From the NCBI GenBank assembly GCA_029288425.1, contig JARIHD010000026.1, positions 1 to 49,569 on the forward strand: 49,569 nucleotides of DNA, read 5' to 3'. Below the pieces are notes generated by a model. The model made no database searches and was not told where the DNA came from. It saw only the letters and a program-made list of their open reading frames with translations. Both the position numbers and the translations under genes were made by a program. This document shows positions 1,997 to 36,777 of this stretch, one piece after another. The first letter of the stretch is position 1, and every line of letters begins with the position of its first letter. This stretch comes from Candidatus Saccharimonadota bacterium. GTDB taxonomy: Bacteria > Patescibacteriota > Saccharimonadia > Saccharimonadales > UBA4665.

Positions 1997-3529
1997 CTAA
2001 ATAGCCCCGTTATTGCCACCAATGATAGGCGATGCCGTGCCGGTTGGTGTGCCGATAAATTCAAAGCCTGTGTAGCCGGCCTCAGTCCAAAAGTTTTGTG
2101 CTTCAGGTGCGGTACCCGGTGTGGTGTCAGCCAAAGAAGCCTGAGCTGCATTATATGTTTGGCCGTTGGTCTTGCTTTTGTAGTCTCCGGTGTAAATGTA
2201 CGTGTGACCGTCGCTGATCAAAATGGTTCCTTCTTTTTCTTTAAGCTGCAGAGTACTAGTCACGTTAAAAATTGGCTTCCATTTGCTCGGGTTCCTGAGG
2301 GCATAGTCGCGTTGAAGTAGAGTGCCGCGCCGAGCGTAGGAGCTGTCGACGCCAGAGGCATGAATGACGGTCGCGGTAAATACGCCGCAGTCGCTAAATG
2401 GGTTAACAGTCGTGTATTTATTGAAGGTTCTCTGCGCTTCGACATAGTTTGGCTTTGCGATCGATGCGCCACCGTCGCATTTGTCGCCGCATCCGTTTTC
2501 GATCTTCATAGCGGGTGTAATGACATGGCCGCCTTTGGTGTCCCATGCGAAACAAAGCGCAGTGCTGACGAGCAGTTGTTTGGGTGATGTACCGGCACCC
2601 GGCGGGTTACACCCGGCAACGACATTTCCACCGGCGCAGCCAGTATTTGCAGCGGCTCCGGCCGCCCCGCCGAACGCTTGGACGCTGTCGCTGGTCTTAC
2701 CATACACTAATTTTGATTTTTCGGTCATTCTAAGACGCTGTTCAAGTTCCGGTGTGCCGAGTACCAGGCCTGCTATATCGGCGTACTTGGCACGAACCTG
2801 GGCTAGCAGACTTAGTCGTTCTTGGTTGTACGCCGCTTCTTGTCCGCGAGAGGCTTCAGCCCAGGGGTGATTCCCTTCGTATTTGAACCAAAAAGAAACT
2901 GCTTCCAGGAATTGTTCTGCGGTTGAGGACGGGTTGATCAGGGTTTCGGCCATTCGATTCTGGAAGCTACCGATCATTGTGCGGGCAGTGGCTTCGACCC
3001 CGGCGTCAAATGATCTGTATGACTGGACGCCGTCAGGACGGTGGGGTGTATTCGGGTCGAGTAGTTCGGGTGCGTTCAGTCCAGAGTTGAGCGGGTTAAA
3101 AATACTACTCGTGTTATTGATGTCTCCACCCTCGCCCAGCATAAATGCAACGACGCCCTGAACATGTTGTTCGGTTACGGTGGCTGAAGCCGGTACATTA
3201 CGTTTCGCCGCGATGGCCTTTAGTGTTTCGATGGCGAATTGCTCCAAAATATAAGGTGGTTGGAGGCCACTGTTCCAAATGCCCGGCCCTCCGCCGCCAC
3301 TGCTGTCACCGCCAGTTCCACCTACGGTACCGGCACCGCACTCATTATCTTTCCAGTCAAAACGCAAAATATGATTGTTAAACAATTTTTGTTGTTCGAC
3401 AGAAAGCGCCCGGACGTCCGAGGAGTTGATGCCGCTTGCCAAAATAACGGCGATCATGCTGGCAACCGTTAGTCGTACGCCCAGCCTTCCACAAGCTCTA
3501 AGTATGGTCTTTCTTGATGGCATTTTCAT
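1997..3529 (-). CDS. Secreted bifunctional peptidoglycan hydrolase of a T4SS (VirB1/CwlT-like)
   Basis: 510 aa. An N-terminal hydrophobic segment (~16-36) is a signal peptide or anchor. A Gly/Ser-rich linker leads to a lysozyme/transglycosylase-like domain (~90-270) with a candidate catalytic Glu133 in FMLGEGG and later YRSFDAGVEATARTM. After a second linker, a C-terminal cysteine-peptidase-like domain (~315-495) has Cys381 in SDCGVF and His442 in DGHTYIY, which fits NlpC/P60 or CHAP chemistry. The lysozyme-plus-peptidase order matches CwlT/Orf14 proteins of Gram-positive conjugation systems, which open the wall for the channel. Extra cysteines (~C298, C307, C326, C347, C351) suggest disulfides. 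Family assignment is from motifs only. Confidence 0.68.
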   Translation of the reverse strand: MKMPSRKTILRACGRLGVRLTVASMIAVILASGINSSDVRALSVEQQKLFNNHILRFDWKDNECGAGTVGGTGGDSSGGGGPGIWNSGLQPPYILEQFAIETLKAIAAKRNVPASATVTEQHVQGVVAFMLGEGGDINNTSSIFNPLNSGLNAPELLDPNTPHRPDGVQSYRSFDAGVEATARTMIGSFQNRMAETLINPSSTAEQFLEAVSFWFKYEGNHPWAEASRGQEAAYNQERLSLLAQVRAKYADIAGLVLGTPELEQRLRMTEKSKLVYGKTSDSVQAFGGAAGAAANTGCAGGNVVAGCNPPGAGTSPKQLLVSTALCFAWDTKGGHVITPAMKIENGCGDKCDGGASIAKPNYVEAQRTFNKYTTVNPFSDCGVFTATVIHASGVDSSYARRGTLLQRDYALRNPSKWKPIFNVTSTLQLKEKEGTILISDGHTYIYTGDYKSKTNGQTYNAAQASLADTTPGTAPEAQNFWTEAGYTGFEFIGTPTGTASPIIGGNNGAI

Positions 3530-3541
3530 ATTTTCTGGCCC

Positions 3542-5950
3542 TTACCCGTTTGAAAATCCTACATACTGACATGACTCATTATCGCCGCCCAAACATGTCA
3601 TAGAGTTCATGTTGAGCGTGTATTTAACAAAGAAGCGAGTAAGGAGCCATTCGTATGTCTTATCCCCACATTCAGGGGCTTTTATCTCCTTCATGGTCGG
3701 GGTTTTGTCGGTGGCGCTGGTGGCATTCCAGTGGCCCTCACTGTCTTTACCAATAATGACGGCATTACAGGTGGCCATGCGGTCAATGAAAGGCCTGCCA
3801 TTTGGACTATCAAACAGTTTACCGGCGGCGCGGCCGACTTCGACCGGGTTTTGAAACCTGGTGTCATTCATTTCTTGGACGCTGAACCCTACCTTGGGGA
3901 ATGGGAATTTGTAGTAGGTGTCGCCGGCGGCATAACTACGGCCGGACAGCAGATTGCCAACATTGCTAATCAGAGTGCTGCCGACATTACCAATATTGCT
4001 AAATAGATCACTTATATTGCTCGACGCGCTGTAGTTGCTATAGCGGTCTATTAGGCGGGATACGGGGGTGCGATAGTCATAAGGACTGAATAGGCGGTAT
4101 GCGAGACTCTTTTCAGAGAATTCCTGACGCTGAGACACGGCACTAATATTGATGAGCTCTTTTTCTTCACCTTCATTGAGTGCGCGGCCGCCGCCTGCAA
4201 GTGCTTGGTCGCCAGCAGCGAGCCGTGAACCAAAACGCCATATGTTGCCTCTATCAGCGCCGACGGCGTTTATAACGTCGACTGGGTCATCGGAAAGCCA
4301 GGCGCCCCCCGCATCTATTATTTTAGGTATTAATGCGAGTCCTATTGCCGTGCTGACTACAGTTGATACCGGTCCGCCAATAAACGACACAACCAGCACC
4401 GCTCCCGCCACGGCCGCACTACAGGCTACATCCAGAGGTGCGTCGAACGGCGCTTCATTCAGGAATGAGAACGGTGTTCCATTGCCGATGTTTTTCAGAG
4501 ACAATGATGGCGCATAACCCTTACCAGGCTGTCCCTCGGCAGCTTTGATTGCCTGTGCATCGCTAAATGACGTCTTTTTGTTACTGCTGTCCACGCCATA
4601 CGTAAATTTATCAAAAAACTCAAGCTGACGCAGGTCAACATCATGACCGCTCTGCGCCTGTGCACCCATAGCTATGGTTGCCACGGCCTCACGTTGCATC
4701 GGTGCAACGACCTTTTCGCGCTCTATTTGTCCCGCTTCATCGTCCATGGATCGCAGTAGGCAAGGAATGGTGGTTAGAGCCGCGCCTCCAAGGGTTATTT
4801 TGGTGGCCAAGCTATTGCGGAATGCCGATAAAGGGGACTTATTTCCTTCGGCTGCCGCCTGACCCGCGGCCTTGCCCTCCTCGATAATTTTGTTAGCTTC
4901 TTGCGCATTCGCCTCGGCGTTTGCGCCCCTGGCCCGTTTTTCTTCCTCCGTTTGACCGCCTGGCTTGCTCTCTGCGGAAATCGAATTTGTGCCTTTGCGT
5001 ATTAGCTTGTTGCGCCGCTCGCGCATGGCTTTGTTAAAGGCGTTTTCAGCGCCGCGGAGTATCTTTTGGTCCAGCTTTTTTATGGGGTGGAGTGTTGCAC
5101 CGGTTCTGATCTTTAGTATTCGGGTACCGATTACACTTGATAACTTTCCAACCCCGGCTTGATTGAGCTTACCGCGTACGAATCTTTGACTCTTAAAATA
5201 GCCCAATTTTTGAGAACTAATCACTACTTTTCCACGCGCTTCGGGGTTGCTGCTCAGGCTGCTGCCATTTATGACGGCTTCTTTTGGTATACCGTATTTA
5301 TTTTGCAGGTGATCGCGCAACTGATTGTCATTCATGCCCCTAAATTCAGGATGTGAACGGTCTATTGCAAACCCATCGAAGTAACCGAATATATTGGTGT
5401 ATGCGGAACTTATCCCAGTGGAGTTAAGGCGAGCTTCGTACCGGTCAGCGAACTTGTTACCTAGAGCATTCAGGCGGGTATTTTCGGGAGTTCCCTTGTT
5501 CAGCATTCTGATGGTGCGGTAGATACGAAATACGGAAGTGTCGTCCTGGTCTTCGTTCGAGGACCAGTCGGCGGACTGTAGCAGCTGTGCAATGTGCATA
5601 AACTTTAGCGGGCCGGTGCCAATGGTTAATGTAAGCATGGCGCCACTAATAATCGCCCCCCCGATTACTCCACCTGCAGCGGCTTCTTTTTTGTGGCGCT
5701 TAAGCCACCCAAACCTTGGACCGCGGTCAACGTCGCTTGCGGCACTGTTAACGTCGCTGGAGCCATCGCTCTTCCGGCCGCCTCCGGGGATGTTTGGATT
5801 GTATCCACTGCCGATACGGTTAGGGTCGTCTTTGCCGTGATCATTTAAATATTGGTCATGGGCATTACCGCCAGTGGCCTTATTGAGCTCCCTAAGCTCC
5901 TCTTGTTCGGCTTCGGTTAATCCCCTCTCTTCGTCAGTCCCTGTCGCCAT
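3542..5950 (-). CDS. Large membrane protein of the T4SS operon, function unknown
   Basis: 802 aa. A polar, Asp/Gly-rich N-terminus (~1-80) ends in a Lys-rich patch, followed by one span (~90-112), a long Lys/Arg and Glu/Ala-rich region (~270-375) likely to be coiled coil, a hydrophobic stretch near 385-400, and a strong hairpin-like hydrophobic pair (~505-545). The C-terminal third ends with several cysteines. I do not recognise a family. Its place between VirB4 and the cell-wall hydrolase, with gaps of 12-22 bp, makes a scaffold or channel component likely. The ATG has AAAGGG and AGAGGG upstream. Confidence 0.72.
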   Translation of the reverse strand: MATGTDEERGLTEAEQEELRELNKATGGNAHDQYLNDHGKDDPNRIGSGYNPNIPGGGRKSDGSSDVNSAASDVDRGPRFGWLKRHKKEAAAGGVIGGAIISGAMLTLTIGTGPLKFMHIAQLLQSADWSSNEDQDDTSVFRIYRTIRMLNKGTPENTRLNALGNKFADRYEARLNSTGISSAYTNIFGYFDGFAIDRSHPEFRGMNDNQLRDHLQNKYGIPKEAVINGSSLSSNPEARGKVVISSQKLGYFKSQRFVRGKLNQAGVGKLSSVIGTRILKIRTGATLHPIKKLDQKILRGAENAFNKAMRERRNKLIRKGTNSISAESKPGGQTEEEKRARGANAEANAQEANKIIEEGKAAGQAAAEGNKSPLSAFRNSLATKITLGGAALTTIPCLLRSMDDEAGQIEREKVVAPMQREAVATIAMGAQAQSGHDVDLRQLEFFDKFTYGVDSSNKKTSFSDAQAIKAAEGQPGKGYAPSLSLKNIGNGTPFSFLNEAPFDAPLDVACSAAVAGAVLVVSFIGGPVSTVVSTAIGLALIPKIIDAGGAWLSDDPVDVINAVGADRGNIWRFGSRLAAGDQALAGGGRALNEGEEKELINISAVSQRQEFSEKSLAYRLFSPYDYRTPVSRLIDRYSNYSASSNISDLFSNIGNVGSTLISNVGNLLSGRSYAAGDTYYKFPFPKVGFSVQEMNDTRFQNPVEVGRAAGKLFDSPNGRPFIDRMATCNAVIIGKDSEGHWNATSATDKTPTMKEIKAPECGDKTYEWLLTRFFVKYTLNMNSMTCLGGDNESCQYVGFSNG

Positions 5951-10323: not shown

Positions 10324-12270
10324 CTAGAAGAGCTTGCGGCGCTTACCATTGGCGAACCAACGCCATACATTCATTTGACGCGCGGTAACGGGCGCGTTCG
10401 GCGCCTTCGGGTCGTGTTCGACGGCGACGTGATTTTTCCAGAGAATAGAACCATCGCTGAGCAGTTCGGCGCTCGGGTTGATCTGGTTGGGATCTGCTTT
10501 TACGACTTTGGCTACGGTAAATACACCGAGTAGTTTTTTCTTCTTGATATGCAGCGGTGCTTCTGGTGACATGCGGGTTTCAAGCATACCCTGCCAGTAG
10601 CGGCCACTGCCAAGTTTGTGACGCGCTTCTTTGAGCGCCAAGCCCGAGTTATGCAACGTTTGCTCGTTTGTCCTCCAGTCGGCATGCGCTTTTGCCTCTT
10701 GGGCACGCAGCTGAGGCAAGGCTTGATGTGCCTGCTGTAATTTCAGGGTCGCTTGCTGGTGGTCGAAAATTGCCCGGTCGCGTTTTTGGCCAAACTGGGG
10801 GTCATTAGGGTCCAAACTCCTTAGGTGCGCATCTATTTGATTGATAAGAATCTGGTTCGTTCTAATGTCATGGGTTGCTCGAGCAATGTTATGGCGAGTG
10901 GCATCGATAAAATGCTCAATCCGCGGTTTTTGATCCCACGCGTTCCGGTGTGCACTTTCGGCGGCTGCCTCCATACCCTCGATGGTTTTGTTGTAGCATT
11001 TTAGTTCGGCGTGTGCGCGGGCTGTTCGTTCCGGGCTGCGGGCCTCGTCCCAGGCGGCAAGTTCTTCGGCCGGGAAATCGTAACGGCGCTCGTATTCTGA
11101 ATGAATTTGGGGTATGCGGGTATCGGGCGTTATCTCGCTTGGCGTTCCGTCGGCACGGGTGCGCGGAGTGATAAATACATTACCGCTTGCATCGCGGGCA
11201 ACACGGGCTTGGTCGCCATTGTCATAGATAACGGCTTCTTCGGGCGTGTTGGGGTTGATTATAATGCCGCCGTCAGGAGTGAATTCGGCGTTGATGTTTT
11301 TGCCCTCGGCGACGTTGGTGGCGATTTCGCGCTGCTTTAGGCGGTAGCTCATGCTTATGTAAGCGGTCAGTAAGTTGGCCCGTTCTGGGTCATGCCTGGA
11401 GAGCTTGTTCATAGACGTGGCAACGTCTTCAAGTACTGCCTGCATGTTGCCAAGCTCTGTGGGGTCTATAGGTCCATTCAAAGGAAACTGTTCTAAGTCG
11501 GTGTTGATAAGCTGCAGGTCGGTTGTTGCTTCCTCGATGGCCCTATTACGGTCTTCGTCGAGTTTGTCGACAATCTCAAAGACCAGGTCTGCTTGGCCTT
11601 CGGTAGCGGCCCTGTTGCGCAGTGCTTGCATGTGTGCTTTTCGTTCCCGGCGGGATCGACTCATGATCGTGGAATTATCAGCATGAGCCCGTTCGAGGTC
11701 TCGGGCGGCACCTTTATTTTTCGGATCCTTAAGGTCCTTGCCTGCATGTGCGTCCTCTGCGGCACGTACATGGAAATTGGCGGCAGCGATGTTATGTGTG
11801 GCTTGGTTGACGGCTGCGGCCGTACCATGCGGCTTTGCTGCTGCCTTCTTCTCGGTCGCTAAAAATGTTCGGCCCCGACTTACCAGCAGGTCAAAGACGG
11901 TTTCTGGGTTGTTCCTGGTCATCATGTCGCTGACATAATTAAGCGCGTTTGCCTTTATTGCGGCCATTTTTTGATACTCGGCGTCCAGGCCGCGTTTATT
12001 AAAATGATTACCTGCAACAAATTGCTGGGCCTGATCTGGTGAATAACCCTGTTGCATTAGCTGCCGAATGATCCCATCTACCTTGATCTGATAGTCATTG
12101 TGCGCCTGCCGGTAGCCGTCCAGTACACTATCGAGTTCGAGCACCTGGGCGTGCCAGGTCTGTTCCGGAACAGGCGGCAGATTGCGCTCCGGAAGTGTTT
12201 GAGTCACGACATGGTCAACATGCACTTCGGGTGCTTGAGGAGGTATAGGAGGATGATTTGGATTTATCAT
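10324..12270 (-). CDS. Coiled-coil protein of the T4SS operon, function unknown
   Basis: 648 aa, soluble, with no signal peptide or span. The N-terminus is Pro-rich (PNHPPIPPQAPE) and most of the rest is charged helix rich in Ala, Gln, Glu and Arg, likely coiled coil, with one beta-rich insert (~340-400) around GGIIINPNTPEEAVIYDNG. It ends in a basic tail (ANGKRRKLF). It lies between the VirB6-like and PrgI genes but has its own promoter and a perfect inverted repeat upstream, and that promoter resembles those of the repeat-protein cluster at 29-35 kb. A cytoplasmic T4SS accessory or substrate role is inference. Confidence 0.7.
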   Translation of the reverse strand: MINPNHPPIPPQAPEVHVDHVVTQTLPERNLPPVPEQTWHAQVLELDSVLDGYRQAHNDYQIKVDGIIRQLMQQGYSPDQAQQFVAGNHFNKRGLDAEYQKMAAIKANALNYVSDMMTRNNPETVFDLLVSRGRTFLATEKKAAAKPHGTAAAVNQATHNIAAANFHVRAAEDAHAGKDLKDPKNKGAARDLERAHADNSTIMSRSRRERKAHMQALRNRAATEGQADLVFEIVDKLDEDRNRAIEEATTDLQLINTDLEQFPLNGPIDPTELGNMQAVLEDVATSMNKLSRHDPERANLLTAYISMSYRLKQREIATNVAEGKNINAEFTPDGGIIINPNTPEEAVIYDNGDQARVARDASGNVFITPRTRADGTPSEITPDTRIPQIHSEYERRYDFPAEELAAWDEARSPERTARAHAELKCYNKTIEGMEAAAESAHRNAWDQKPRIEHFIDATRHNIARATHDIRTNQILINQIDAHLRSLDPNDPQFGQKRDRAIFDHQQATLKLQQAHQALPQLRAQEAKAHADWRTNEQTLHNSGLALKEARHKLGSGRYWQGMLETRMSPEAPLHIKKKKLLGVFTVAKVVKADPNQINPSAELLSDGSILWKNHVAVEHDPKAPNAPVTARQMNVWRWFANGKRRKLF

Positions 12271-12274
12271 AGGA

Positions 12275-12321
12275 TTATGTGCTTATGGTTTAATTTAAGC
12301 ACATAATTGCTAAAATATCAA
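12275..12321 (-). promoter_or_regulatory. Promoter with overlapping 12-bp inverted repeat (operator-like)
   Basis: Reading the minus strand, TTGATA (12316-12321), a 17-bp spacer ending in TGTGC, and TTAAAT (12293-12298) form a sigma70-like extended -10 promoter, with a predicted start about 16 nt before the ATG at 12270. Perfect 12-nt arms at 12275-12286 (ATTATGTGCTTA) and 12296-12307 flank a 9-nt centre. They cover the -10 and the start site, where a dimeric repressor or an RNA hairpin could act. The arms are A+T-rich and no T-run follows, so a terminator is less likely. Confidence 0.55.
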
Positions 12322-12337
12322 TATAGTTTAATTGAGA

Positions 12338-15300
12338 TTATGGTTGCATGCGAGGATTGTTGGGATTGTGGGGGTCATTGAGGCTGTTGCCACGCTGTGG
12401 TGATACCCAACGTGCGGTCTGTGCTAGCTGGGGGTCATGCCGGGGGTTGGGCATATAGACTACGTTTCCGGCACCGTCATCGTGCATCACGACTGGCCGT
12501 TCCATAACCTGTACGGGTCCGCCGGCCAGACTTCCGTTCATCGATTGAACATTGCCGCTCTCAGTTTGATATGGCTGGCTTGCTGCAGCCACTTGAGCCG
12601 CAACTTGGGGTCGTAGATCTTCCGCTTCGGCGAGTCCATTCGCAAAACGCTCTGTGTTGCTTGCTGCGGCGTAAGGAGTGGTCATTTGCAGGTTGTCGAC
12701 TATACCCTGTAGAACCACAGCTTCCCGGCGTGCAGCCTGAGCCTTTTCCGGATCGGAAGAAGTCCGAGCGATAGATACTTGTTTCTCCAGCTCTTCAGAG
12801 ATAGCCGGTGCCCAGTTGTTGACGGCCACGCCTTTGGCACGGGCCATAGTGTGGGCATCGGTGTCCTTGGCCGAGGCGACAACCCCGCGTCTTACCTGGG
12901 CGTCATCAAGGGAGTGTCCTTGGGCCATGCGCTCATTATACAATTCCATATGTGTACCGAAACCGGCAGCCAGGTCGTTGCGGCCAACACCCTTTGTGGT
13001 GGCGTTTCCCTCACCCAATATAGCTGCTGCAAGCTGGTTGTTTTTGCCTGCTACACGAGCGACAGTGTCATGTACCTGGCGTAAATTGTCGTAACCTGTA
13101 CCGGTGGCAAATAGTCTGCGCGCAGCATTGATCTGTGCGGCACGACTCCAGCCGCCGCTAACCTTGGCAGCTGCAATCGCATCCTCAAGTTCTTGGCCTT
13201 TCATGCCCCAGTCAGCTTCCGCGAACATGCGGGCTTCGGCTTCGTTTTTATAGGACAGCATGCGTTGAGCGCCATCATTATGCTGCATGACCTGTGCTTT
13301 TTCGGTCTTGCCATAGCGCGCAGCCAAGATGTTTTCGTGCTGCTCCATAGCCGCGTTGCGAGCTGATTGTCGGCGGCTCTTATTAAGGCTCAAAAAAGCG
13401 CCCTTGTTGTCAGCATTCCACCATGCTGCCGCACCTTTAGTGGCAGTGTTGAATCCGAGGTAGTCGCGCTTGAAACGGTCACCAGACGCCATCTTGCCCA
13501 TATTCTTTGATATTTGATTGCCGCGGAATTTACTAAGCGCACGGGATCCCATATTGAACTTGTCCTGAATGCCGGTCAAAAGTCCGGTTATGTTGCCGCC
13601 GAGTTTGATGATCAGGGCTGTGACCAAGAGCGGGCCGGCCAAATCAAGTCCGGTGCCAACTAATTGGTTTACGGGGCCGCCCAGATTATATAGGGTAAGT
13701 CCTCCGGCTCGTATACCCGCGATAATGGCCGGCGTCGCTATCATAACTATTGCTACGGCCGTTCCTGCCCCGGCGCCGAACTTTCCTAAGCCGCGTGTAT
13801 TTTCAAGGGCAAAGCTGGCTATAATAATAGGCAGCAATGCCAAAACGAGGAACCCCACGGTTTCGACGATACCCAAAAGAAAGACTGCCGCCCCAACCGT
13901 AAGCGCAGCTGATCCGACAAGGCTCAACAGCCCAAGCGGTCCCAAAAATAGTACGGCTCCAGTACCAAGCAGTGCCAGCGCGATGGAGCTTCCCCCGCCC
14001 AGCTGTTCGCGGGGTATATTATCGAAAGGCGTTATAACTACAGCAGCAAGTCCCTGGCCAAGTCCGTTTATGATTCCTACGGCAAGTTTTCCCAGCGGCC
14101 ACGCGAAGCTGATAAGCAATATAATAATGGCCAGTTTGGGCGCTAATCTTTTTATGCTGTAGGCGCTCATAAATTCGAAGCCTGTAGCCTGCGACACTAC
14201 CATAATGAGCGCGACGACAACAATAAGACCGATTGCGAGTACGCGGAAGGCGTTCGATACCAGATGATACGGACCTCCATCATTAAGAGGGGTAATATCT
14301 ATGGAGAGCTGCGAGTTGAGCAGATCGTTTAATAGACCGACTACGGCTGACAGGCTATCCAATACCGGGCAGACGATCCATTTCAGGGAAAGGTAGTCAA
14401 CGACACTAAAGGCAAGATCACAGCTTGTCGGAGCAAGGTTGCCGTCTTCGCTTGTTCCCGGTGTGGGGGGCGGTGCATTGGCGGGCGGTGCATTGTCGGC
14501 GGTGCCGACGCCTTTCATGATTTGGAAACCGTCGTCGCCCCAGCCGGCGGGGGTTATGAAATTGACATATGCGAAGAGATTGCCGTTAATACCTGTACGG
14601 GCATAGCCATCTGGTTCACAAACTATAGTCCTACCGGTGTCCTTACATCCTTGATCGGGCCTTAGTATATCGGAACGTCTACGCTTTTCGAGCTGGAATG
14701 GTGATTCGATTTCGATTGATCGCACCCGACAGTTCTCTTTTGAAATGCCCCCGGCACCGATATATCCGTCATAACGTTCTGAGACTGCAGTGCCCTTTTC
14801 GTCGCCAAAATCAACGGTTTTGGGTGCCATCGGAAAGATATACCAGTTAGCGCCATCTTTAACGACAATATCGGCACACTGGACACCGGATTCACCATTG
14901 CGCACGAAGACTTCCGCGCCGCCGCTATTGCCTGTTTTATTAAAACTGACGCTTCCATTGTAGGAACTAACGGTGTCGCCAGAGCGATACAGGCTGTAAC
15001 CGTTTGCACTTGCCGGATTGGAAATGGTGATCGCTGTGTCGGTGCCTTCACAGGTTTCGGAGCCCGTGAGGTCTTTTTTATTGGGGTCAATAACATGGCG
15101 CGTGCCACTCGTGCCGTCGCCGGTAACTGAAATGTAGTCGCGCATAACGTTCTGGCGAGTGCCATAGGTACATGGACTTGATCCGGCCAGGTCAAAGTTG
15201 CGGACATCGTCTGTGATGTTTCTGTCGTAAAATATTTCGTTGCCATTAACGATGGTTCCGGCGTTGCGGTAGGTATAGGCATTTCCCTGCGCCTGGACAT

Positions 15301-15445
15301 GTACCGGTTGTACGATGATATTAATAAGACTCGCAAATATTGCCGTGCTCAAAACTAACATAGCGCAGTTAAATGTTATAAAACGGTGTAGAGTTAGCTT
15401 TGAGAAGTATTTCATGCCCATTTGAAGCAGTTTATATCCTGCCAT
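12338..15445 (-). CDS. VirB6/TrbL-like polytopic T4SS protein
   Basis: 1035 aa. An N-terminal signal or span (~22-45), ending near VQAQG, is followed by an exported Gly/Asn/Ser-rich domain (~50-350) with cysteines. At least six hydrophobic segments follow (~355-640), including SNAFRVLAIGLIVVVALIMV and long Gly/Ala/Ile spans. A ~390-residue cytoplasmic tail begins near DKFNMGSRALSKFRGN and is rich in Ala, Gln, Arg. VirB6/TrbL proteins form the inner-membrane channel. It is the first gene of the minus operon, divergent from the pilins. A TATGCT box lies 10 nt upstream of the ATG, so the leader is very short. An alternative start is Met11. Confidence 0.8.
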   Translation of the reverse strand: MAGYKLLQMGMKYFSKLTLHRFITFNCAMLVLSTAIFASLINIIVQPVHVQAQGNAYTYRNAGTIVNGNEIFYDRNITDDVRNFDLAGSSPCTYGTRQNVMRDYISVTGDGTSGTRHVIDPNKKDLTGSETCEGTDTAITISNPASANGYSLYRSGDTVSSYNGSVSFNKTGNSGGAEVFVRNGESGVQCADIVVKDGANWYIFPMAPKTVDFGDEKGTAVSERYDGYIGAGGISKENCRVRSIEIESPFQLEKRRRSDILRPDQGCKDTGRTIVCEPDGYARTGINGNLFAYVNFITPAGWGDDGFQIMKGVGTADNAPPANAPPPTPGTSEDGNLAPTSCDLAFSVVDYLSLKWIVCPVLDSLSAVVGLLNDLLNSQLSIDITPLNDGGPYHLVSNAFRVLAIGLIVVVALIMVVSQATGFEFMSAYSIKRLAPKLAIIILLISFAWPLGKLAVGIINGLGQGLAAVVITPFDNIPREQLGGGSSIALALLGTGAVLFLGPLGLLSLVGSAALTVGAAVFLLGIVETVGFLVLALLPIIIASFALENTRGLGKFGAGAGTAVAIVMIATPAIIAGIRAGGLTLYNLGGPVNQLVGTGLDLAGPLLVTALIIKLGGNITGLLTGIQDKFNMGSRALSKFRGNQISKNMGKMASGDRFKRDYLGFNTATKGAAAWWNADNKGAFLSLNKSRRQSARNAAMEQHENILAARYGKTEKAQVMQHNDGAQRMLSYKNEAEARMFAEADWGMKGQELEDAIAAAKVSGGWSRAAQINAARRLFATGTGYDNLRQVHDTVARVAGKNNQLAAAILGEGNATTKGVGRNDLAAGFGTHMELYNERMAQGHSLDDAQVRRGVVASAKDTDAHTMARAKGVAVNNWAPAISEELEKQVSIARTSSDPEKAQAARREAVVLQGIVDNLQMTTPYAAASNTERFANGLAEAEDLRPQVAAQVAAASQPYQTESGNVQSMNGSLAGGPVQVMERPVVMHDDGAGNVVYMPNPRHDPQLAQTARWVSPQRGNSLNDPHNPNNPRMQP

Positions 15446-28255: not shown

Positions 28256-29314
28256 TTACATCGAGAGGTTTGGCACGACTTCAAGGGTCAGGGGATCGAC
28301 TGCTGGTTGCCCGAGCATGGCTTTAAAGCACCCCAACGTGGCAATCATGGCCCCGTTATCGCCGCATAATTTCAGATCGGTATAAGAAATAGGGAAGGGC
28401 AGTCGAGCCGCCAGTTGCCGCCGCAGTTCGCTATTGGCGGCTACGCCACCACCGATGACTACGCACGCAGGTTTGAATTCTTCCACCGCCAGCACCACCT
28501 TGTCGACAATCGTTTCACAAGCTACACGCTGAAAACTAGCCGCAATATTGGCTTTCTGGCCTTCATTTAATAGTCCAGGAAGGGCTGTAGAGGGTAATGA
28601 GTAATCATGTCCCGTTTGTTCCTGTGCAAGCCGCAAAACGGCCGTTTTGAGCCCCGAAAAGCTAAAATCGTATTTTCGCATGCGCGCTTTGGGCAGCTGA
28701 AAGGCCATAGGATCGCCTTCCAGTGCTTTATTCGAAACATTTATACCGCCGGGGTAGGGGAGTCCGATAATTTTAGCAACCTTATCAAAGGCCTCGCCGA
28801 TAGCGTCATCTTGTGTCTGTCCGAGCAAGGTATAATCGAAATGATCGCGCCATAGCACGAGCTGGCTGTGTCCGCCGCTTACAATCACCCCCAGTATCGG
28901 AAACCGGGGTTGCTCAGCGGGCAGTACGTAGCCGCGCAGAGAAGTTTGAGTCAGAAAATTAGCATAAATATGACCCTCGACGTGGTTTATGGCATATAAC
29001 GGTTTGTTTTTAGCAAGAGCCAGTGTCCGCGCGGTCAATACGCCGATCAGCAAACTACCTAAAAGACCGGCACCGTAAGTAACGGCAATCGCATCAATAT
29101 CATCCCATGTACAGCCACTGTCATCCAGTGCTTGCTGCACGACTGGAATGATGGCTTCAATGTGGCTGCGCGCGGCAATTTCAGGAATAACGCCGCCGTA
29201 TTTGGCATGCAAGTCCATACTGCTGGCAACGACGTTGCTCCGCAGTTTTTTGCCATCTTGTACCACAGAGACGGCTGTCTCGTCGCAGCTTGATTCAATT
29301 CCCAATACGATCAC
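28256..29314 (-). CDS. tsaD: tRNA N6-threonylcarbamoyladenosine transferase TsaD
   Basis: 352 aa from a GTG at 29314, giving the standard N-terminus MIVLGIESSCDET. The metal site HVEGH has His111 and His115, and the family segments VTYGAGLLGSLLIGV, ILGVIVSGGHSQLV and CVVIGGGVAANSELR are present. With TsaB/TsaE it makes t6A37 in ANN-decoding tRNAs. TATGCT (with TGC before it) ends 6 nt before the GTG, so the message is leaderless; the TTG at 29332 lies upstream of that promoter and is rejected. Confidence 0.95.
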   Translation of the reverse strand: MIVLGIESSCDETAVSVVQDGKKLRSNVVASSMDLHAKYGGVIPEIAARSHIEAIIPVVQQALDDSGCTWDDIDAIAVTYGAGLLGSLLIGVLTARTLALAKNKPLYAINHVEGHIYANFLTQTSLRGYVLPAEQPRFPILGVIVSGGHSQLVLWRDHFDYTLLGQTQDDAIGEAFDKVAKIIGLPYPGGINVSNKALEGDPMAFQLPKARMRKYDFSFSGLKTAVLRLAQEQTGHDYSLPSTALPGLLNEGQKANIAASFQRVACETIVDKVVLAVEEFKPACVVIGGGVAANSELRRQLAARLPFPISYTDLKLCGDNGAMIATLGCFKAMLGQPAVDPLTLEVVPNLSM

Positions 29315-29360
29315 GCTTACAGCATAGCACAACCGTATCCATTCATACTATTGAGTATAG

Positions 29361-29389
29361 TTGACTTACATGCATCATTATGCTAATGT
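29361..29389 (+). promoter_or_regulatory. Shared-type promoter of repeat-protein gene 1
   Basis: TTGACT (29361-29366), a 17-bp spacer ending in ATTATGC, then TAATGT (29384-29389). The predicted start is ~4 nt before the ATG at 29400. It sits inside the longest open frame, which is why the upstream TTG start is wrong. Confidence 0.6.
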
Positions 29390-29399
29390 ATATATTAAT

Positions 29400-30704
29400 A
29401 TGCTTCACCACGAGCAACCACTAAACATCCCCAGCGAAGCAGATGACCGTTATTTTTCAGGCCGGCTGCCTATAGAACATGTCGATGCCACGCCTGAACC
29501 GCAGATTGACTTTAACGAATACGTTCACCGCAAAACACGTAGTGACTTAGAGGATCTTTTGGCTCCAACCGAACTATCGCTCAAAGAGGGAGGGGTGCTG
29601 GATGGTCTTCGTAAGGCAGCTCAGGCGGAGCTCGATGCCCGTAACCAAAAAAGCCGGAGCGGCGGTAATTTCCAGGCTGGTCTACTCAAAGGCAAAGATG
29701 TGCCTGTAAGGGAAATTGAAGATAACATGCCCAATATGAGCGGCAATCCCGACGCACTCACTCATAAAGAGTTTCCGCCTGAGGATAAGTCCAACGAGGC
29801 CGCTCCAAAGGAAGCGTCCAGGCCGGAGCGGCCAGCCCCCATCTTTTATCGCCGCAAAAACATAACTCCACCCAATCCTATTCCTTCGATGGAAGGTAAA
29901 CTATACAGCGACGCACCAAAAACATATCCTTATGCACTGTGGCATAAGGCTGCCGAGAAGGGGAAGGATGACAAGGGAAATCGTAACTTTCTTGGTGGCA
30001 TCGACTACTTATCGACAGAGGAAATTCAGGACATGGTCAATTACGCCACCGGCCCGGATCGGGCTGCTGATTTCACAAAGGCGCGTGATGCTGCCTATAT
30101 CGACTCACAAACGTATGCCAGCATGCACATGCGTCGCAGAGGGCATATAAATGATGCGACGACCGATGAGTACGCCGCCAAAGCCCGGCAGTCTAAGGCT
30201 CGCGCAGATTACCACCATCGATTGGCCGGCGATATCTTTAATACCGAGGATAGAAACTTATTGTCGCCCCGCGACTTAAAGGTGCTGCAGCAGGAATTAC
30301 GCGACCGCCAGGCTGCTGACGCCTACATTGAGAAGCAATTTGATAGCCTAGCAAAATCCCAGGAAGGGGTTGACACTACCCTGCAGATGCTGCAATTCCT
30401 GGGTCTTGAAAAATCTCCCAAAAAATTATTGAACTGGAAAGTCAGTATGGGCAATATAGGGGTCGGCCCTGCGGCAGCAGCGCAGGCATACGACTGGCGT
30501 GCTCTCCAGATTATTCGCGATAACCCGGCGGTTTCCGAATATATATTTGAACACTCCGCTTCGCATGATGTATATGACCGCCTCAAAACTCATGCCGGCA
30601 AAGAGTTATTCCTAGATTTTTACCATCCCTACGCTCATGAAATGAGCGAGCGAATGAGCCGGCGGTTGCACGCTGAGGAACAAGCAAGAAAGCAAGCCGC
30701 ATAG
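29400..30704 (+). CDS. Repeat-family protein 1 (tandem paralogue), unknown
   Basis: 434 aa from the ATG at 29400. Soluble, charged, no signal or span. The N-terminal half is low-complexity with a conserved helix pair (DLEDLLAPTELS...GLRKAAQAELDARNQ). The C-terminal half has the block GGIDYLSTEEIQDMVNYATGP, then a helical region with LKVLQQELRDRQAADAYIEKQFD and YDWRALQIIRDNP. The same blocks occur in the same order in the next gene, and weaker in the third, showing descent by duplication. It has only one copy of the core, the shortest of the three. No homologue with known function is recognised. Confidence 0.75.
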   Translation: MLHHEQPLNIPSEADDRYFSGRLPIEHVDATPEPQIDFNEYVHRKTRSDLEDLLAPTELSLKEGGVLDGLRKAAQAELDARNQKSRSGGNFQAGLLKGKDVPVREIEDNMPNMSGNPDALTHKEFPPEDKSNEAAPKEASRPERPAPIFYRRKNITPPNPIPSMEGKLYSDAPKTYPYALWHKAAEKGKDDKGNRNFLGGIDYLSTEEIQDMVNYATGPDRAADFTKARDAAYIDSQTYASMHMRRRGHINDATTDEYAAKARQSKARADYHHRLAGDIFNTEDRNLLSPRDLKVLQQELRDRQAADAYIEKQFDSLAKSQEGVDTTLQMLQFLGLEKSPKKLLNWKVSMGNIGVGPAAAAQAYDWRALQIIRDNPAVSEYIFEHSASHDVYDRLKTHAGKELFLDFYHPYAHEMSERMSRRLHAEEQARKQAA

Positions 30705-30726
30705 TAATATATAAAGTGCTATATAA

Positions 30727-30755
30727 TTGACATTCTTTCATATTTATGATTGAAT
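30727..30755 (+). promoter_or_regulatory. Shared-type promoter of repeat-protein gene 2
   Basis: TTGACA (30727-30732), a 17-bp spacer ending in TTTATGA, then TTGAAT (30750-30755), followed by GTATATAG and an A/C-rich leader. About nine in ten bases over ~60 bp match the region at 33151-33210 by eye. The leader is ~50 nt and carries AAGGA before the ATG. Confidence 0.58.
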
Positions 30756-30814
30756 GTATATAGAAACACAAAACAAAATTAGTAAGCTCAACCCCTCCAT
30801 AAGGAACTAGAACC

Positions 30815-33145
30815 ATGTTATCCCCAATCGGTAATTTCGACCAACCCCCACAGACGAGACTCTCCGAAGCGGGACATTTTGGAAGCGCGCTGGAAAAGGC
30901 AATGCAAGAAGCCGCTGAAAGCTTAAATGCTCCGGCAATACCACGGCCTGGTGTTGAACATTCACCCGCACCGGCCGAGCCGGAGAAGCCTGCTGAATTT
31001 GTTAATCCTTTTAACGAAGTATCAAACGGACTCCTGAAAAGGATAATGAATGCGGAAAATACCGATCAATTACCTGAGGTCGCTGGTGCTGCCGGCATTC
31101 CTGTCGAAGAGCGCGGTACTTGGTTTCTTGGTCTGCAGGCTGGCGCTCGGGCAGAAATAGAACGACGCAAAGCGGCCAATCAGCAAGGCAAAACCTTTAA
31201 GACTCTTGATGAACTCAATGCCAATAAACCTAAAGTCGCCGAAGCCAAAACTCCGGATTCTGATGAGACCGTAACGGCCCCTGAACTCTCCCTGGACACG
31301 GATAAGTTTCCCGCCCAAACAGAAGTTAAGCCCCGGGCTGAGGCCCTTCCCCAAACCGACGCGGAAAAATATGACGCCAAATACGCTGCTATGGGCGAAG
31401 ATAAAATCATGGACTTAGGCTATCGCATATCAGAGCTCGGCGACGATACTGTCACCAAAGACATGTCGGTAGAGGAGCAAAAAGCTCTAGCCCGTGCTTA
31501 TAACCGCATCATGAGCACGGCCCATGCAGAATATGATCAGGTTGGCCCTTCATGGATTCTGCACTGGAAGCAAAATGAAGGAGTTAAGCCTTTGCCTCGT
31601 GGCTACCAGGCTATTTTAGATGCACGCGCCAAGCAAGCCCAAATCGAACTAACCGAGCAGTACCGCCAAATGAGCAGTATGGATTTGATCAAAATGGCCG
31701 ACGATGGGGCAGAGATCCGAAGTAAAGCTGAGTTGGAGATCTATGGCGCGCAACTGGAGCGTGCCCAAAAAGAAATAGCAGAAGTCCTTGCAGGCCTGGG
31801 TCCACAAGAGATCATCAAGGAGTATGAGGCTAGGAGAGCGAATCCCGAAGATAATAAAGGAATGTACATGGATCTGCTCGCCAAAAAATATGAAGCAGCG
31901 CAAAAAAAGCTAGAAAATTGGCGGGCCAAGTATCACCACATGTCTGACGACGCCATTATTGGTTTGTCCGAAGAGCGAATAAAAGCTATGTCCGAAGCAG
32001 AATTCGACATATACGCCGAGGAATATCAGAAGGCGGTGAAACACAGGAAAGAACTACTTGCCGATAAAAATCATGGGAAGGTTCCGAGAGAGAGTGTTGG
32101 CGCGTCGCCTGCATCCCAAAGCCTGGATCTCAATGCTATCCACGCAAAATACAACAGCATGGATACGGCGGGGATTCTGCACGCCGCTGATGAGGCTTTT
32201 GCCGGCAAAATGTCTGACACCGAATTCGATGTTTTTATACATAAGTACAATGCTGCCCTAAACAATATGCACGTGCAGTTAAATAAAATGCCGCGGCAGC
32301 AGATTATTTCCATCTACGAACAGTTCAAAGGCGATGAGACGGACGCACCCAGGCATGAAGGTCTCCTAAAAGTTATGGAGCCGTTCTATGCTCGCGCCAA
32401 ATCCGCCCAGGAGTCATATGACATTTTCAATAAAGCACTCAAGCACGGCGAAGACGACTTCATGAAAGGTATCGACTATCTGAGTACAGAAGAGCTTGAG
32501 ACCCTATATGATTATGCAACCAGTCCCCAGGAAGCTGGTAGACTGCAGCGAAAGTTTAACCGTGCTGCCAAACGACGCAACAAGCTTACGGCGAAGGTTG
32601 TCCGAGGTCGGGCAACTGCCTTGGAAGATGGGGTTGCCCGCGCGGCTGCCCATCTCGCCGATAGTTATCGGCGGCAGCGTGAGGCATTGCCCAATGTTGC
32701 CGATACGCAGTTACTTACAAAACGCCATCTCCGCGAAGTGGAACGCGAGTTGACAAACAGAGATGTTGCCGACGAATATATCCAAAAGCAATTTGATGCA
32801 ATGAAAAGCATCGCGGAAAAGCAAGGGGGTATATTTGAAGTTCCCGAGCAGTTCATTGATCTCGACAAAGCTCCTCCAGTCATAAAACAGGCAATTGAAA
32901 AGGGCGACGCTGGGATAGGCAACCAGTTCATCCGAGAGGCCTACGACCGTCGAGTTCTCCGGATGATGCAGAAGAGTCCCTACCTGGCTGACAGCATCCT
33001 GCTATGGCGCGATAAACACGCTAAGTTGCACAACCAATTAGCAACCCGTGCCGCACAAGAACAGCTCCACGACCTTTACCTGCAGCGCATGAGTGCTCTG
33101 GATGAACGAATGAGGGGGAATGACTCCAGAGGCGAAGCAGCCTAA
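30815..33145 (+). CDS. Repeat-family protein 2 (tandem paralogue), unknown
   Basis: 776 aa, soluble, very rich in Ala, Glu, Lys, Asp. Conserved N-terminal helix pair (LLKRIMNAENTDQLPEVAG...GTWFLGLQAGARAEIERR, ~69-125), Pro-rich linker, then four or so ~60-70-residue modules each starting KY..M.(D)...I and followed by a MS..E motif (e.g. ~186, ~275, ~371, ~443). The C-terminal block GIDYLSTEELETLYDYATSP (~552) and LREVERELTNRDVADEYIQKQFD match paralogue 1. AAGGA lies 9 nt before the ATG. Probably an extended helical-repeat protein; role unknown. Confidence 0.75.
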   Translation: MLSPIGNFDQPPQTRLSEAGHFGSALEKAMQEAAESLNAPAIPRPGVEHSPAPAEPEKPAEFVNPFNEVSNGLLKRIMNAENTDQLPEVAGAAGIPVEERGTWFLGLQAGARAEIERRKAANQQGKTFKTLDELNANKPKVAEAKTPDSDETVTAPELSLDTDKFPAQTEVKPRAEALPQTDAEKYDAKYAAMGEDKIMDLGYRISELGDDTVTKDMSVEEQKALARAYNRIMSTAHAEYDQVGPSWILHWKQNEGVKPLPRGYQAILDARAKQAQIELTEQYRQMSSMDLIKMADDGAEIRSKAELEIYGAQLERAQKEIAEVLAGLGPQEIIKEYEARRANPEDNKGMYMDLLAKKYEAAQKKLENWRAKYHHMSDDAIIGLSEERIKAMSEAEFDIYAEEYQKAVKHRKELLADKNHGKVPRESVGASPASQSLDLNAIHAKYNSMDTAGILHAADEAFAGKMSDTEFDVFIHKYNAALNNMHVQLNKMPRQQIISIYEQFKGDETDAPRHEGLLKVMEPFYARAKSAQESYDIFNKALKHGEDDFMKGIDYLSTEELETLYDYATSPQEAGRLQRKFNRAAKRRNKLTAKVVRGRATALEDGVARAAAHLADSYRRQREALPNVADTQLLTKRHLREVERELTNRDVADEYIQKQFDAMKSIAEKQGGIFEVPEQFIDLDKAPPVIKQAIEKGDAGIGNQFIREAYDRRVLRMMQKSPYLADSILLWRDKHAKLHNQLATRAAQEQLHDLYLQRMSALDERMRGNDSRGEAA

Positions 33146-33156
33146 AAACTATATAG

Positions 33157-33185
33157 TTGACATTTATTCACGTTTATGCTTGAAT
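33157..33185 (+). promoter_or_regulatory. Shared-type promoter of repeat-protein gene 3
   Basis: TTGACA (33157-33162), a 17-bp spacer ending in TTTATGC, then TTGAAT (33180-33185), followed by GTATATAGG. The segment is a near-duplicate of the promoter of gene 2. Confidence 0.58.
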
Positions 33186-33241
33186 GTATATAGGAAAACA
33201 CAAAACAAAAAAGCAATCAAGTAAGCGAAAGAATACGGATC

Positions 33242-35413
33242 ATGAGCGAACAATTCCCCGGTAATATGGCAGGCAACCAGTTTTATACGAACCCACAGGT
33301 GCTACGCGGCGACGTGCAAGGTGGTCTTTTTGATGCGACCGAACCAACTCAAGTACATCCGGTGCCTCCTGTTGCCGAAACGCAGTATATTCCGGTCATC
33401 GACCCTGCATTGCAGCATGAAAATATGGCTGGCATACCTCCTCAGTCTGGGCCCGAAGCCGTCCAATCACCGGTGAATGCTCCTGAAAGTATCCCGCCAG
33501 CTCCGGCTATCTATGATGCACCGCGCAAAATCCTCAATAGTGTCCTAAAAGCCACTAGCGTCGAGGATTTGCCGGCTATTGTTGGCGCCGACAAGATTCC
33601 AGAGGCAGAACGGGAAGGTTGGTTCGCTGCTCTAAAAGCGGACGCGCAACATGCATTGGACCAGCGAAATGCCGGTAAGCGCAGTGCTAGCTTCAGGTCA
33701 CTAAAAGACCTTAATGCTCACACATCTGCAGCCGCGGCATCTACCACCGAGGCGACATCGGCCCCTGAATCTCTCGACCAGCGCGTTAATAGTGCAACTA
33801 CTACAACTCCCGGTGCCGTACCCGAAATTACAGGGCGGCTTAACGCTAACTCAGCAACCGAAGTCGACCCTCCAACCGGCTTCCTTGATCCAGAGGAAGT
33901 AAAAAAGGCCATGACTGCCGATCTTGAAGTTAAGTACAGCAAGATGAGCGACGATGAGATCCTGACTATCGGTTACGAAGCAATGCACGGTTCCGGTAAA
34001 GTAGCAAAAATGCACCCCATAGAAAAAGCGGTATTCGACAAAGCCAGTCAGAAAGCCCTGGACAAGGTGCATGCTCAATTGGATACCCTGGGCGATTCCG
34101 GTATCCTTTTGCAGGCTGAACAGGTGTTCAACCCAAGTAACGGCAATGCCCCTGTAAAAGTATCAGAGGTTATGAAGGAGATCCTTCACGGCCGAGCCAA
34201 CCGGGCACACCAAGATCTACAAGAGCACTACAATAATATGCCGGCCGAGGACATGCTCCGTTTCGACGAACACGCTGCCAGTGACCCTAATGTAGTAAAA
34301 AATATGAGCAAAGTCGAATTCGCAATGGCAACCCGCAGGCTCAACGAAGCGACTAAAGAGTTGCAGGACAAATATAAAAATATGAACAATGAAGATGTCT
34401 TATGGCTGAATGAAGACGCCAAAAAAGACCCTAGCATCGTAAGTAACATGAGCAAGGTTGAGCGTGCGCTGGTTGACGCTAGAATTAACCAGGCATGGAA
34501 CGAGTTTATTGAAGGGATGAACAAGAATGACTTCAAAGCCGTTCAAGCGGAGTACGATAGTAGTTTGCAGGACCCCGATGATTATCCGACGGACTACCGT
34601 GAATGGTTGAGTAAGTACTACGTATACCGTAAGAATGAAGAGGATAAACGCCTCAACCCGCTAACTACACCTATTCCTGTTCAACCTATCCCTCTTCCAA
34701 AGCAGTCCGAAGGCGTTGCAGAACCGGAAAAAGGGCCTGAAGCGCCTCGAACCCTCGCCGATATATCAGCTGAATTAGACCAGCAAGAGATTGCCCGGAT
34801 TGGCACCGAAATTAATCCTCTTACTCTAAGTAAAGAGGGCATAGCCGATCTGACCGATGCCCAGCTCAACTACATAGTTGACATTGCCACTGGTCCGGCA
34901 CGGTTTGCAGAAAATCGGCAGAAATACGACGACCTGCGTAAAAAACTAGCTAAGCAGCTGAAATCCCAAAAGCGAGCTGAAATCGAAAAGCAGATGCAAG
35001 AACTTGCCGAGAAGGGCGACGCCATTATTAACAAGACCGACCAGAGTATGATTAAGAGTCAGCTCAAGGCATTCCAGCGCGAAAAGACCAAGCGGGAAAA
35101 TGCGCGCACTAATCTAGAAGCGGATATGCACAACCTGAAGCACACGGTTTATCACCGAAAATCCCAAGAAAAGGATGAGAATGAATTGGATGCCTACCAG
35201 AGGGCGATCCTAGGTTTCGATGCTAAAAAAGGCTTTAACCCATGGAAGATGAACAAGCGTATGCAGCGTGCCTCTGACATGGAAATACTTAAGCTCCTGC
35301 CTCCAGCAAAAATCTTCAGCTCCAGAGAGTTCGCCAACCAAGTTTGGAATCGTTTGACTACCAAACAGGGTCGTGACCGATTTGAAGCCCTAGCGGCAGA
35401 ATACGAAGCCTAG
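33242..35413 (+). CDS. Repeat-family protein 3 (tandem paralogue), unknown
   Basis: 723 aa, soluble. Shares the N-terminal helix pair with paralogue 2 (ILNSVLKATSVEDLPAIVGA...GWFAALKADAQHALDQRN, ~97-135) and three clear modules: KYSKMSDDEIL (~230), HYNNMPAEDML (~327) and KYKNMNNEDVLWLNEDAKKD (~375), the latter two ending in NMSKVE. The C-terminal region has the YLST-type block degraded to TDAQLNYIVDIATGP and a long Lys/Glu/Gln coiled coil (~570-650). The SD is weak. It is followed by a hairpin terminator at 35435. Confidence 0.75.
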   Translation: MSEQFPGNMAGNQFYTNPQVLRGDVQGGLFDATEPTQVHPVPPVAETQYIPVIDPALQHENMAGIPPQSGPEAVQSPVNAPESIPPAPAIYDAPRKILNSVLKATSVEDLPAIVGADKIPEAEREGWFAALKADAQHALDQRNAGKRSASFRSLKDLNAHTSAAAASTTEATSAPESLDQRVNSATTTTPGAVPEITGRLNANSATEVDPPTGFLDPEEVKKAMTADLEVKYSKMSDDEILTIGYEAMHGSGKVAKMHPIEKAVFDKASQKALDKVHAQLDTLGDSGILLQAEQVFNPSNGNAPVKVSEVMKEILHGRANRAHQDLQEHYNNMPAEDMLRFDEHAASDPNVVKNMSKVEFAMATRRLNEATKELQDKYKNMNNEDVLWLNEDAKKDPSIVSNMSKVERALVDARINQAWNEFIEGMNKNDFKAVQAEYDSSLQDPDDYPTDYREWLSKYYVYRKNEEDKRLNPLTTPIPVQPIPLPKQSEGVAEPEKGPEAPRTLADISAELDQQEIARIGTEINPLTLSKEGIADLTDAQLNYIVDIATGPARFAENRQKYDDLRKKLAKQLKSQKRAEIEKQMQELAEKGDAIINKTDQSMIKSQLKAFQREKTKRENARTNLEADMHNLKHTVYHRKSQEKDENELDAYQRAILGFDAKKGFNPWKMNKRMQRASDMEILKLLPPAKIFSSREFANQVWNRLTTKQGRDRFEALAAEYEA

Positions 35414-35478: not shown

Positions 35479-36777
35479 ATGAACATTCGTACAGTAGTTA
35501 AGAAGTTGATTCCGCGCGGCTTGTTTCGGCGGATCGAGCCGCTGGGTCATTTGGCCGAGGCGGTTTTATTAAATATTTGGAATGGTTTTCCGGCGCGCGG
35601 AATGAAAGTGATCGGTGTAACCGGTACGAACGGCAAAACGACGACCGTATTTTTGATCCACCGCATGCTGCACGAATCGGGTAAAAAAGTGGGCATGATG
35701 AGTACGGTGGCGTATGGCGTCGGCGACGATATCCGGCCACAAATGACGCACATGACGACATCATCGGTGCCGGTTATTATGAAACGTTTAAAGGAAATGC
35801 GTGCTGCGGGTGTGGAGTATTTGGTGCTGGAAGTAACGAGTCATGCATTGGCGCAACACCGCGTATGGGGGATTCCATTTTCTGTGTCGGTTATGACCAA
35901 CCTAACGCACGAGCATTTGAATTATCACGGAACATTTGAGCGGTACCGCCAGGCCAAACGCATGCTGTTTCGGCAGACCGACCGGAATGTGCGCGGATTG
36001 CGAGTCGGGCTGGTGAATGCCGATGATCCGAATGCCAAGGTGTTTGCCGATGCTATTAGCCATCCGGTGATGTATGGCACGGGCGAGGCTGATTTGCGGG
36101 CTACGGATATAAAATTGTCCCCCAGCAAAGTTTCGTACCAGGCAGTCCATGGTGACAAAAAGTATCACATTACCTGCCAATTGCCAGGGAGTTTTAATGT
36201 GTATAACTCTTTGGCGGCGGTGGGTGTGGGTGAGGCGCTGGGTTTGAGCACGACACAGATAGAACAGGGAGTCGCGGCGCTGGAGGGCGTGGAAGGCCGC
36301 ATGACCAGTATTGACGAAGGGCAGGATTTTACCGTTGTAGTGGATTACGCACACACGCCCGATAGTTTTGAAAAGCTGTTTCGCGACATGAAACCGGTGG
36401 TAAAGGGTAAGTTGATCGTGCTGTTCGGTTCTTTGGGCGGCGGTGACGAGGCCAAACGTGCCGAACAGGGACAATTAGCCGGTGCCTATGCCGATGAGGT
36501 TGTCGTGACCGAAGAAGATAACCGGACCGAAGACCCAGAGCGTATTCGGCGGATGATTGCCGAAGGTGCCGAAGCAGCTGGAAAAGTGATCGATAAGGAT
36601 TTGTTTTTAGTGGCGGATCGGCGCGAGGCGATTCGGTTTGCTTTGGGGCGGGCGCGGAAAGGTGACACGGTGATGCTGCTCGGCAAAGGCCACGAAAAGA
36701 CGATTGAGCGCGCAAAAGAAACTATTTCCTGGAACGAAGCCGACGAAGCACGTAAGGCGCTCAAAAAACTGGCTTAA
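35479..36777 (+). CDS. murE: MurE-like UDP-MurNAc-tripeptide synthetase, short form
   Basis: 432 aa. The Mur-ligase P-loop GTNGKTT is at 49-55, the central domain has LVLEVTSHALAQHR and NLTHEHLNYHG typical of MurE, and the C-terminal domain has VDYAHTPDSFEKLF and LLGKGHE. The N-terminal UDP-binding domain is about 60 residues shorter than in E. coli MurE, and the DNPR substrate motif reads EEDNRTEDP (~346-353), lacking the Pro. It adds the third residue (diaminopimelate or lysine) to the cell-wall stem peptide; which one cannot be said. Leaderless start: TATACT, 6 nt, ATG. Confidence 0.88.
   Translation: MNIRTVVKKLIPRGLFRRIEPLGHLAEAVLLNIWNGFPARGMKVIGVTGTNGKTTTVFLIHRMLHESGKKVGMMSTVAYGVGDDIRPQMTHMTTSSVPVIMKRLKEMRAAGVEYLVLEVTSHALAQHRVWGIPFSVSVMTNLTHEHLNYHGTFERYRQAKRMLFRQTDRNVRGLRVGLVNADDPNAKVFADAISHPVMYGTGEADLRATDIKLSPSKVSYQAVHGDKKYHITCQLPGSFNVYNSLAAVGVGEALGLSTTQIEQGVAALEGVEGRMTSIDEGQDFTVVVDYAHTPDSFEKLFRDMKPVVKGKLIVLFGSLGGGDEAKRAEQGQLAGAYADEVVVTEEDNRTEDPERIRRMIAEGAEAAGKVIDKDLFLVADRREAIRFALGRARKGDTVMLLGKGHEKTIERAKETISWNEADEARKALKKLA

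Follow-up and report, generated by a model that had tools for sequence, protein, structure and literature searches.

A tandem family of predicted helical-repeat proteins in the tsaD-murE junction of a Saccharibacteria genome

Three tandem genes between tsaD and murE

The window analyzed here is the whole 49,569-nucleotide stretch of contig JARIHD010000026.1 from a Candidatus Saccharimonadota bacterium. Three uninterrupted open reading frames (ORFs), named A, B and C, lie head to tail and co-directionally in the junction between tsaD and murE. Gene A (29400..30704, plus strand) encodes a protein of 434 aa with a marginal N-terminal helical part, a linker and a C-terminal helical domain, and with zero central modules. 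Gene B (30815..33145, plus strand) encodes 776 aa: an N-terminal helical part, a linker, seven modules and a C-terminal domain. Gene C (33242..35413, plus strand), with 723 aa, combines an N-terminal helical part and a linker with four modules and a degraded C-terminal domain. A preliminary description of this DNA had listed three ORFs of these sizes in a row, and their coordinates are borne out. The left border of the junction is the divergent tsaD gene (28256..29332, minus strand; TIGR03723, E 2.8e-114), present in 40/40 relatives. The right border is a gene for a murE-type ligase (35479..36777, plus strand; TIGR01085, E 1.6e-123), which shares its strand with A, B and C and is separated from the end of C by 65 nt.

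The products of the three genes would be soluble, charged and mostly helical, and a cytosolic location is presumed. No transmembrane span is found in any of them by hydropathy, nor is a signal peptide, the latter being assessed solely from the hydrophilic N-termini; on these grounds, the earlier statement that both are lacking holds. The proposed layout runs from a small N-terminal helical part through a flexible Ala/Pro-rich linker and the module array to the C-terminal helical domain.

Among known families, nothing significant was found for A–C in Pfam (best E 0.13) or PHROGs (best E 0.027). Neither NCBIfam nor PADLOC gave a match, and the C-terminal, module and full profiles found none among PDB sequences, in agreement with the preliminary description, which recognized no known family. 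Furthermore, no homologue of B is present in 92 other genomes of the family, the module profile has no match in 392 other genomes of the order, and the C-terminal-domain profile has no accepted homologue in 392 other genomes of the class. A class-wide match of the C-terminal profile in genome G158 (E 1.6e-4) is taken as chance, as the protein is unrelated by eye. The genome collection, viral contigs, phages and plasmids contain no homologue of A–C. The restriction to this genus rests on one genome, and assembly or sampling may contribute to it.

Paralogy and the repeat module

The three proteins were proposed to be tandem paralogues, and pairwise comparison confirms this. The C-terminal ~245 residues of A and B align with 32% identity (E 1e-27), and B and C are homologous over the N-terminal part and the middle (E 7e-17). 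The C-terminal block was rightly called degraded in the third protein: this domain still scores 84 between A and C (shuffle maximum 59) and 67 between B and C (shuffle maximum 56). The N-terminal helix pair, initially assigned to all three, is strong between B and C (113 vs. a shuffle maximum of 51) and marginal between A and B (50 vs. 45); between A and C, it is not seen (37 vs. a shuffle maximum of 44). Likewise, the helical block ELRDRQAADAYIEKQFD thought to be common to the three is clear in A and B and not clear in C.

The module is a short-helix/long-helix unit of ~41–53 residues, with seven copies in B, four in C and none in A. Successive modules start 41–53 residues apart, with one exception of 73 residues that contains linker. 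Hence, the repeat noted earlier is real, with a shorter period than the ~60–70 residues first given. In B, the array covers 31364..32416 (plus strand), with modules 1–4 at 31364-31534, 31523-31663, 31646-31789 and 31769-31918 and modules 5–7 at 31913-32056, 32132-32278 and 32261-32416; the module profile was built from these same units, which are therefore found by construction. The array of C covers 33923..34519 (plus strand), with units at 33923-34081, 34064-34231, 34217-34375 and 34355-34519.

Periodicity is evident on self-comparison: the best off-diagonal alignment of the middle of B scores 118 (shuffles 39 +/- 7.5) and that of C 142 (shuffles 32 +/- 6). As an independent check, profiles made from the modules of one protein were run on the other and against shuffled sequences. 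A profile of B modules only recovers all four C modules (full E 1.5e-16, 46.6 bits; 200 shuffles at most 7.0), and a profile of C modules only recovers six stretches of B (E 3.5e-9, 22.9 bits; shuffles at most 6.8). On its own genome, the module profile finds the 11 units used to build it and nothing else.

Structure prediction with AlphaFold2 gives, for each module, a short helix of ~9–14 residues followed by a long helix of ~23 residues. Confidence in the two models is low (mean pLDDT 54 and 67, pTM 0.26 and 0.42), the best part being modules 1–3 of B (pLDDT mostly 70–80), while the linkers fall below 50. Fold searches with both low-confidence models returned no solved structure below E 0.5. 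The proteins resemble helical-repeat types such as alpha-solenoids or spectrin-like arrays in their tandem helix pairs, variable copy number and solubility, but differ from them by the lack of a Pfam or PDB sequence match and of a fold match at that threshold. By none of the tests applied is the module a TPR, Sel1 or spectrin repeat.

Sequence comparison thus supports an undescribed paralogous family with module gain and loss; the module numbers of 0, 7 and 4 in A, B and C sustain the earlier suggestion of duplication with changing module content. The most likely action of these proteins would be multivalent binding, the array setting the number of partner contacts, and the C-terminal domain would do a job common to A–C, for example assembly or attachment. 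The interpretation as a binding array rests on the helical periodicity, since the predicted structures carry low confidence and found no counterpart among solved folds.

Repeated promoter-like elements

Each of the three genes is preceded by a repeated element, of which 40 nt are common to A, B and C and 60 nt are common to B and C. Its general form is TTGAC, 15 bases and TGnT(A/T), which reads as a sigma-70-type promoter-like sequence of the extended -10 form. The element of A lies at 29361..29389 (plus strand; TTGAC-N15-TGCTAATGT; repeat family D1). Those of B (30727..30755) and C (33157..33185), both on the plus strand and belonging to repeat families D1 and D2, have the form TTGACA-N17-TTGAAT, with TGA and TGC, respectively, before the -10 box. 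Each gene would probably be transcribed from its own element. In B and C, an A/C-rich leader follows; in A, the ATG stands ~11 nt after the -10 box, so that this gene may be leaderless. A TTG start at 29361 for gene A is unused; it falls within the -35 box. The elements were missed by a consensus promoter scan because the scan requires an A at position 2 of the -10 box. The form found in B and C occurs nowhere else in the genome with up to three mismatches; an 18-nt match to its start inside gene C (34868-34885) is probably due to chance.

The same general promoter type is found ahead of many junction occupants in other genomes. Across the fetched regions, it precedes 62/404 rare ORFs (those whose homologues are confined to three other genera or fewer) vs. 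0/465 widespread ORFs, a set of 15 families only; control motifs with altered spacing or letters are flat. For rare ORFs of at least 180 aa, the proportions are 21/51 in the junction vs. 15/171 outside it, an enrichment that is partly by construction, as the motif itself came from sequences upstream of junction genes. Outside the junction, the contrast between rare (15/171) and widespread ORFs (0/381) is less affected by the choice of motif. The genome under study has 23 motif matches vs. 3 in a reversed control, and conserved genes are among them: ftsK-like, helicase and further genes also carry the promoter type upstream. A promoter private to rare genes was therefore rejected, and the claim is reduced to one of enrichment, given the small widespread set and the ftsK-like and helicase genes with the pattern.

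In several loci (L142, L143, L148-L152, L155 and L156), a conserved ORF of 101–128 aa with a hydrophobic start lies ~6–8 kb upstream of murE and has the same promoter type ahead of it. A promoter link to a type IV secretion system (T4SS) pilin in family f35 was considered and dropped, as the small ORFs there are not pilin-like on reading.

The tsaD-murE junction and the possible roles of A–C

The length of the junction was measured in 79 Saccharibacteria genomes, seven further ones being unresolved, mostly because of contig ends. It is nearly closed in 37/79 (<250 bp between tsaD and murE) and filled in the other 42 (0.65–8 kb; 649–703 bp in six genomes and 1–8 kb in 36). The occupants are mostly lineage-specific ORFs, which lie on the murE strand in 51/61 cases (ORFs of at least 180 aa). 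In this size class, 38/61 junction ORFs have no homologue in the fetched region of another genus vs. 126/552 outside the junction, the comparison being solely with the surrounding 12–18 kb (odds ratio 5.6, p 7e-10, a p value overstated by the relatedness of the genomes and a simple ORF caller). Turnover is also visible within genus g2, where the junction is empty in G112, holds related proteins in G001 and G114 and holds an unrelated 635-aa protein in G115. These observations suggest that tsaD-murE is a hotspot of gene turnover, with occupants replaced across and within genera. For the diversifying selection proposed in the preliminary description, the fast replacement of occupants across genera is indirect evidence at most.

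Other occupants are like A–C in position, strand and size, and some are tandem paralogues as well (G008, G016 and G042); the promoter type is a further common trait of many. They have domains in common among themselves, combined in varied ways. In sequence, however, they are unrelated to A–C: distant kinship was sought by HMM and hhalign, and nothing rose above shuffled controls (best 1.4% vs. 1.05% shuffled). Several, unlike A–C, have a hydrophobic span, and one has a PP2C domain.

Some of these occupants deserve mention in their own right. L082, L040, L045, L105, L110, L114 and L160 encode large, lineage-specific proteins in which domains are variously combined; several join a hydrophobic span to a C-terminal block that is LysM-like by eye, although Pfam reports no LysM there. 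The junction protein of G015 (L086:2906-4690) carries a PP2C phosphatase domain (PF13672, E 3.3e-11), with weaker related domains in L040 and L124, and an ORF of G067 (L122:1978-2769), on the strand opposite to murE, has a Fic domain (PF02661, E 1.9e-16). A protein with a GDSL-lipase match and 14–16 cysteines (L155:1403-3895; relatives in L149 and L156) has an N-terminal hydrophobic stretch and a C-terminal span. In family f35, a Mur-ligase-like protein (L142:9285-10358; relatives in L143, L150 and L152; PF08245, PF02875) overlaps the start of murE. Finally, the 1295-aa junction protein of G002 (L054:8303-12187) has no significant Pfam match, and its C-terminal part is glycosyltransferase-like by eye. 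A limited literature search brought up no account of the tsaD-murE locus.

The neighboring murE raises the idea that A–C form an intracellular structural or envelope-linked scaffold tied to cell-wall synthesis. The prevailing murE orientation of the occupants, the short distance from the end of C to murE and the joining of a hydrophobic span with further domains, one of them a PP2C phosphatase, in some other occupants are consistent with this. Such a scaffold is nevertheless improbable: murE does without any such gene in the 37 genomes with a nearly closed junction, the occupants are mostly unrelated to one another, and A–C have neither a span nor a wall-binding domain.

The diversity of the occupants and the many genomes without any would also suit tolerated insertions: the site, with its divergent promoter region, would simply be permissive, foreign or new genes would survive in it, and A–C would have no important function; the presence of the promoter type ahead of ftsK-like, helicase and other genes points the same way. 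This is the least probable of the explanations weighed here, as selection is suggested by the long, uninterrupted frames in genomes of small size, by recurring tandem duplication and by the survival of modules in paralogues that have diverged.

T4SS genes lie in the window as well, ~20 kb from A–C; their products are a VirB4-type ATPase, a PrgI protein and pilin-like proteins. Such a T4SS gene set has been described for Patescibacteria (PMC12102498), but A–C match none of its components. Beside the T4SS genes lie large ORFs of 648, 1035, 510 and 802 aa (10324-15445 and 1997-5950) for which Pfam gave no match. The preliminary description took the T4SS in the same window as a hint that A–C are its substrates and proposed a survey of linkage to virB4. 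This survey does not favor the idea: in the 17 genomes measured, 17–39 kb separate virB4 from the junction, which is empty in seven of them. The linkage is thus ordinary, inherited gene order and was rejected as a sign of a functional tie; hence, the T4SS in the window says nothing about substrates.

A host-directed role is broader than this linkage. A–C could leave the cell through the T4SS or by other means, their arrays varying so as to match partners in the host bacterium or escape them. A host-facing role would fit the tandem paralogues with their differing numbers of modules and the quick replacement of genes at this locus. The organism is also a member of an epibiotic group, in which the T4SS is reported to be essential for growth that depends on the host (PMC12102498 citing PMC10633639). 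Against this, A–C give no positive sign of export, with neither span nor signal peptide; no common tail is seen by eye on their C-termini, and the distance to the T4SS genes is alike at empty junctions. Such a role is therefore judged unlikely, if somewhat less so than the scaffold.

The reading preferred here, with a probability of roughly 0.45, is that A–C are a helical-repeat multivalent binding family, made of duplicated promoter-plus-gene units and placed in the tsaD-murE turnover hotspot. Growth of this family would have proceeded by duplication of the promoter-plus-gene unit within the junction. A bolder proposal, and a doubtful one, is that the junction is reserved for host-interaction proteins that evolve fast and are strongly expressed, of which A–C would be this genus's module-varying set with a common promoter type.

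Saccharibacteria live on other bacteria, and how lineages are fitted to their hosts is poorly known. A fixed address with core-gene flanks, at which lineage-specific proteins are gained and lost, would let a short set of candidates be drawn up for any Saccharibacteria genome, those of genetically tractable strains among them, and A–C supply an undescribed repeat unit for structural work.
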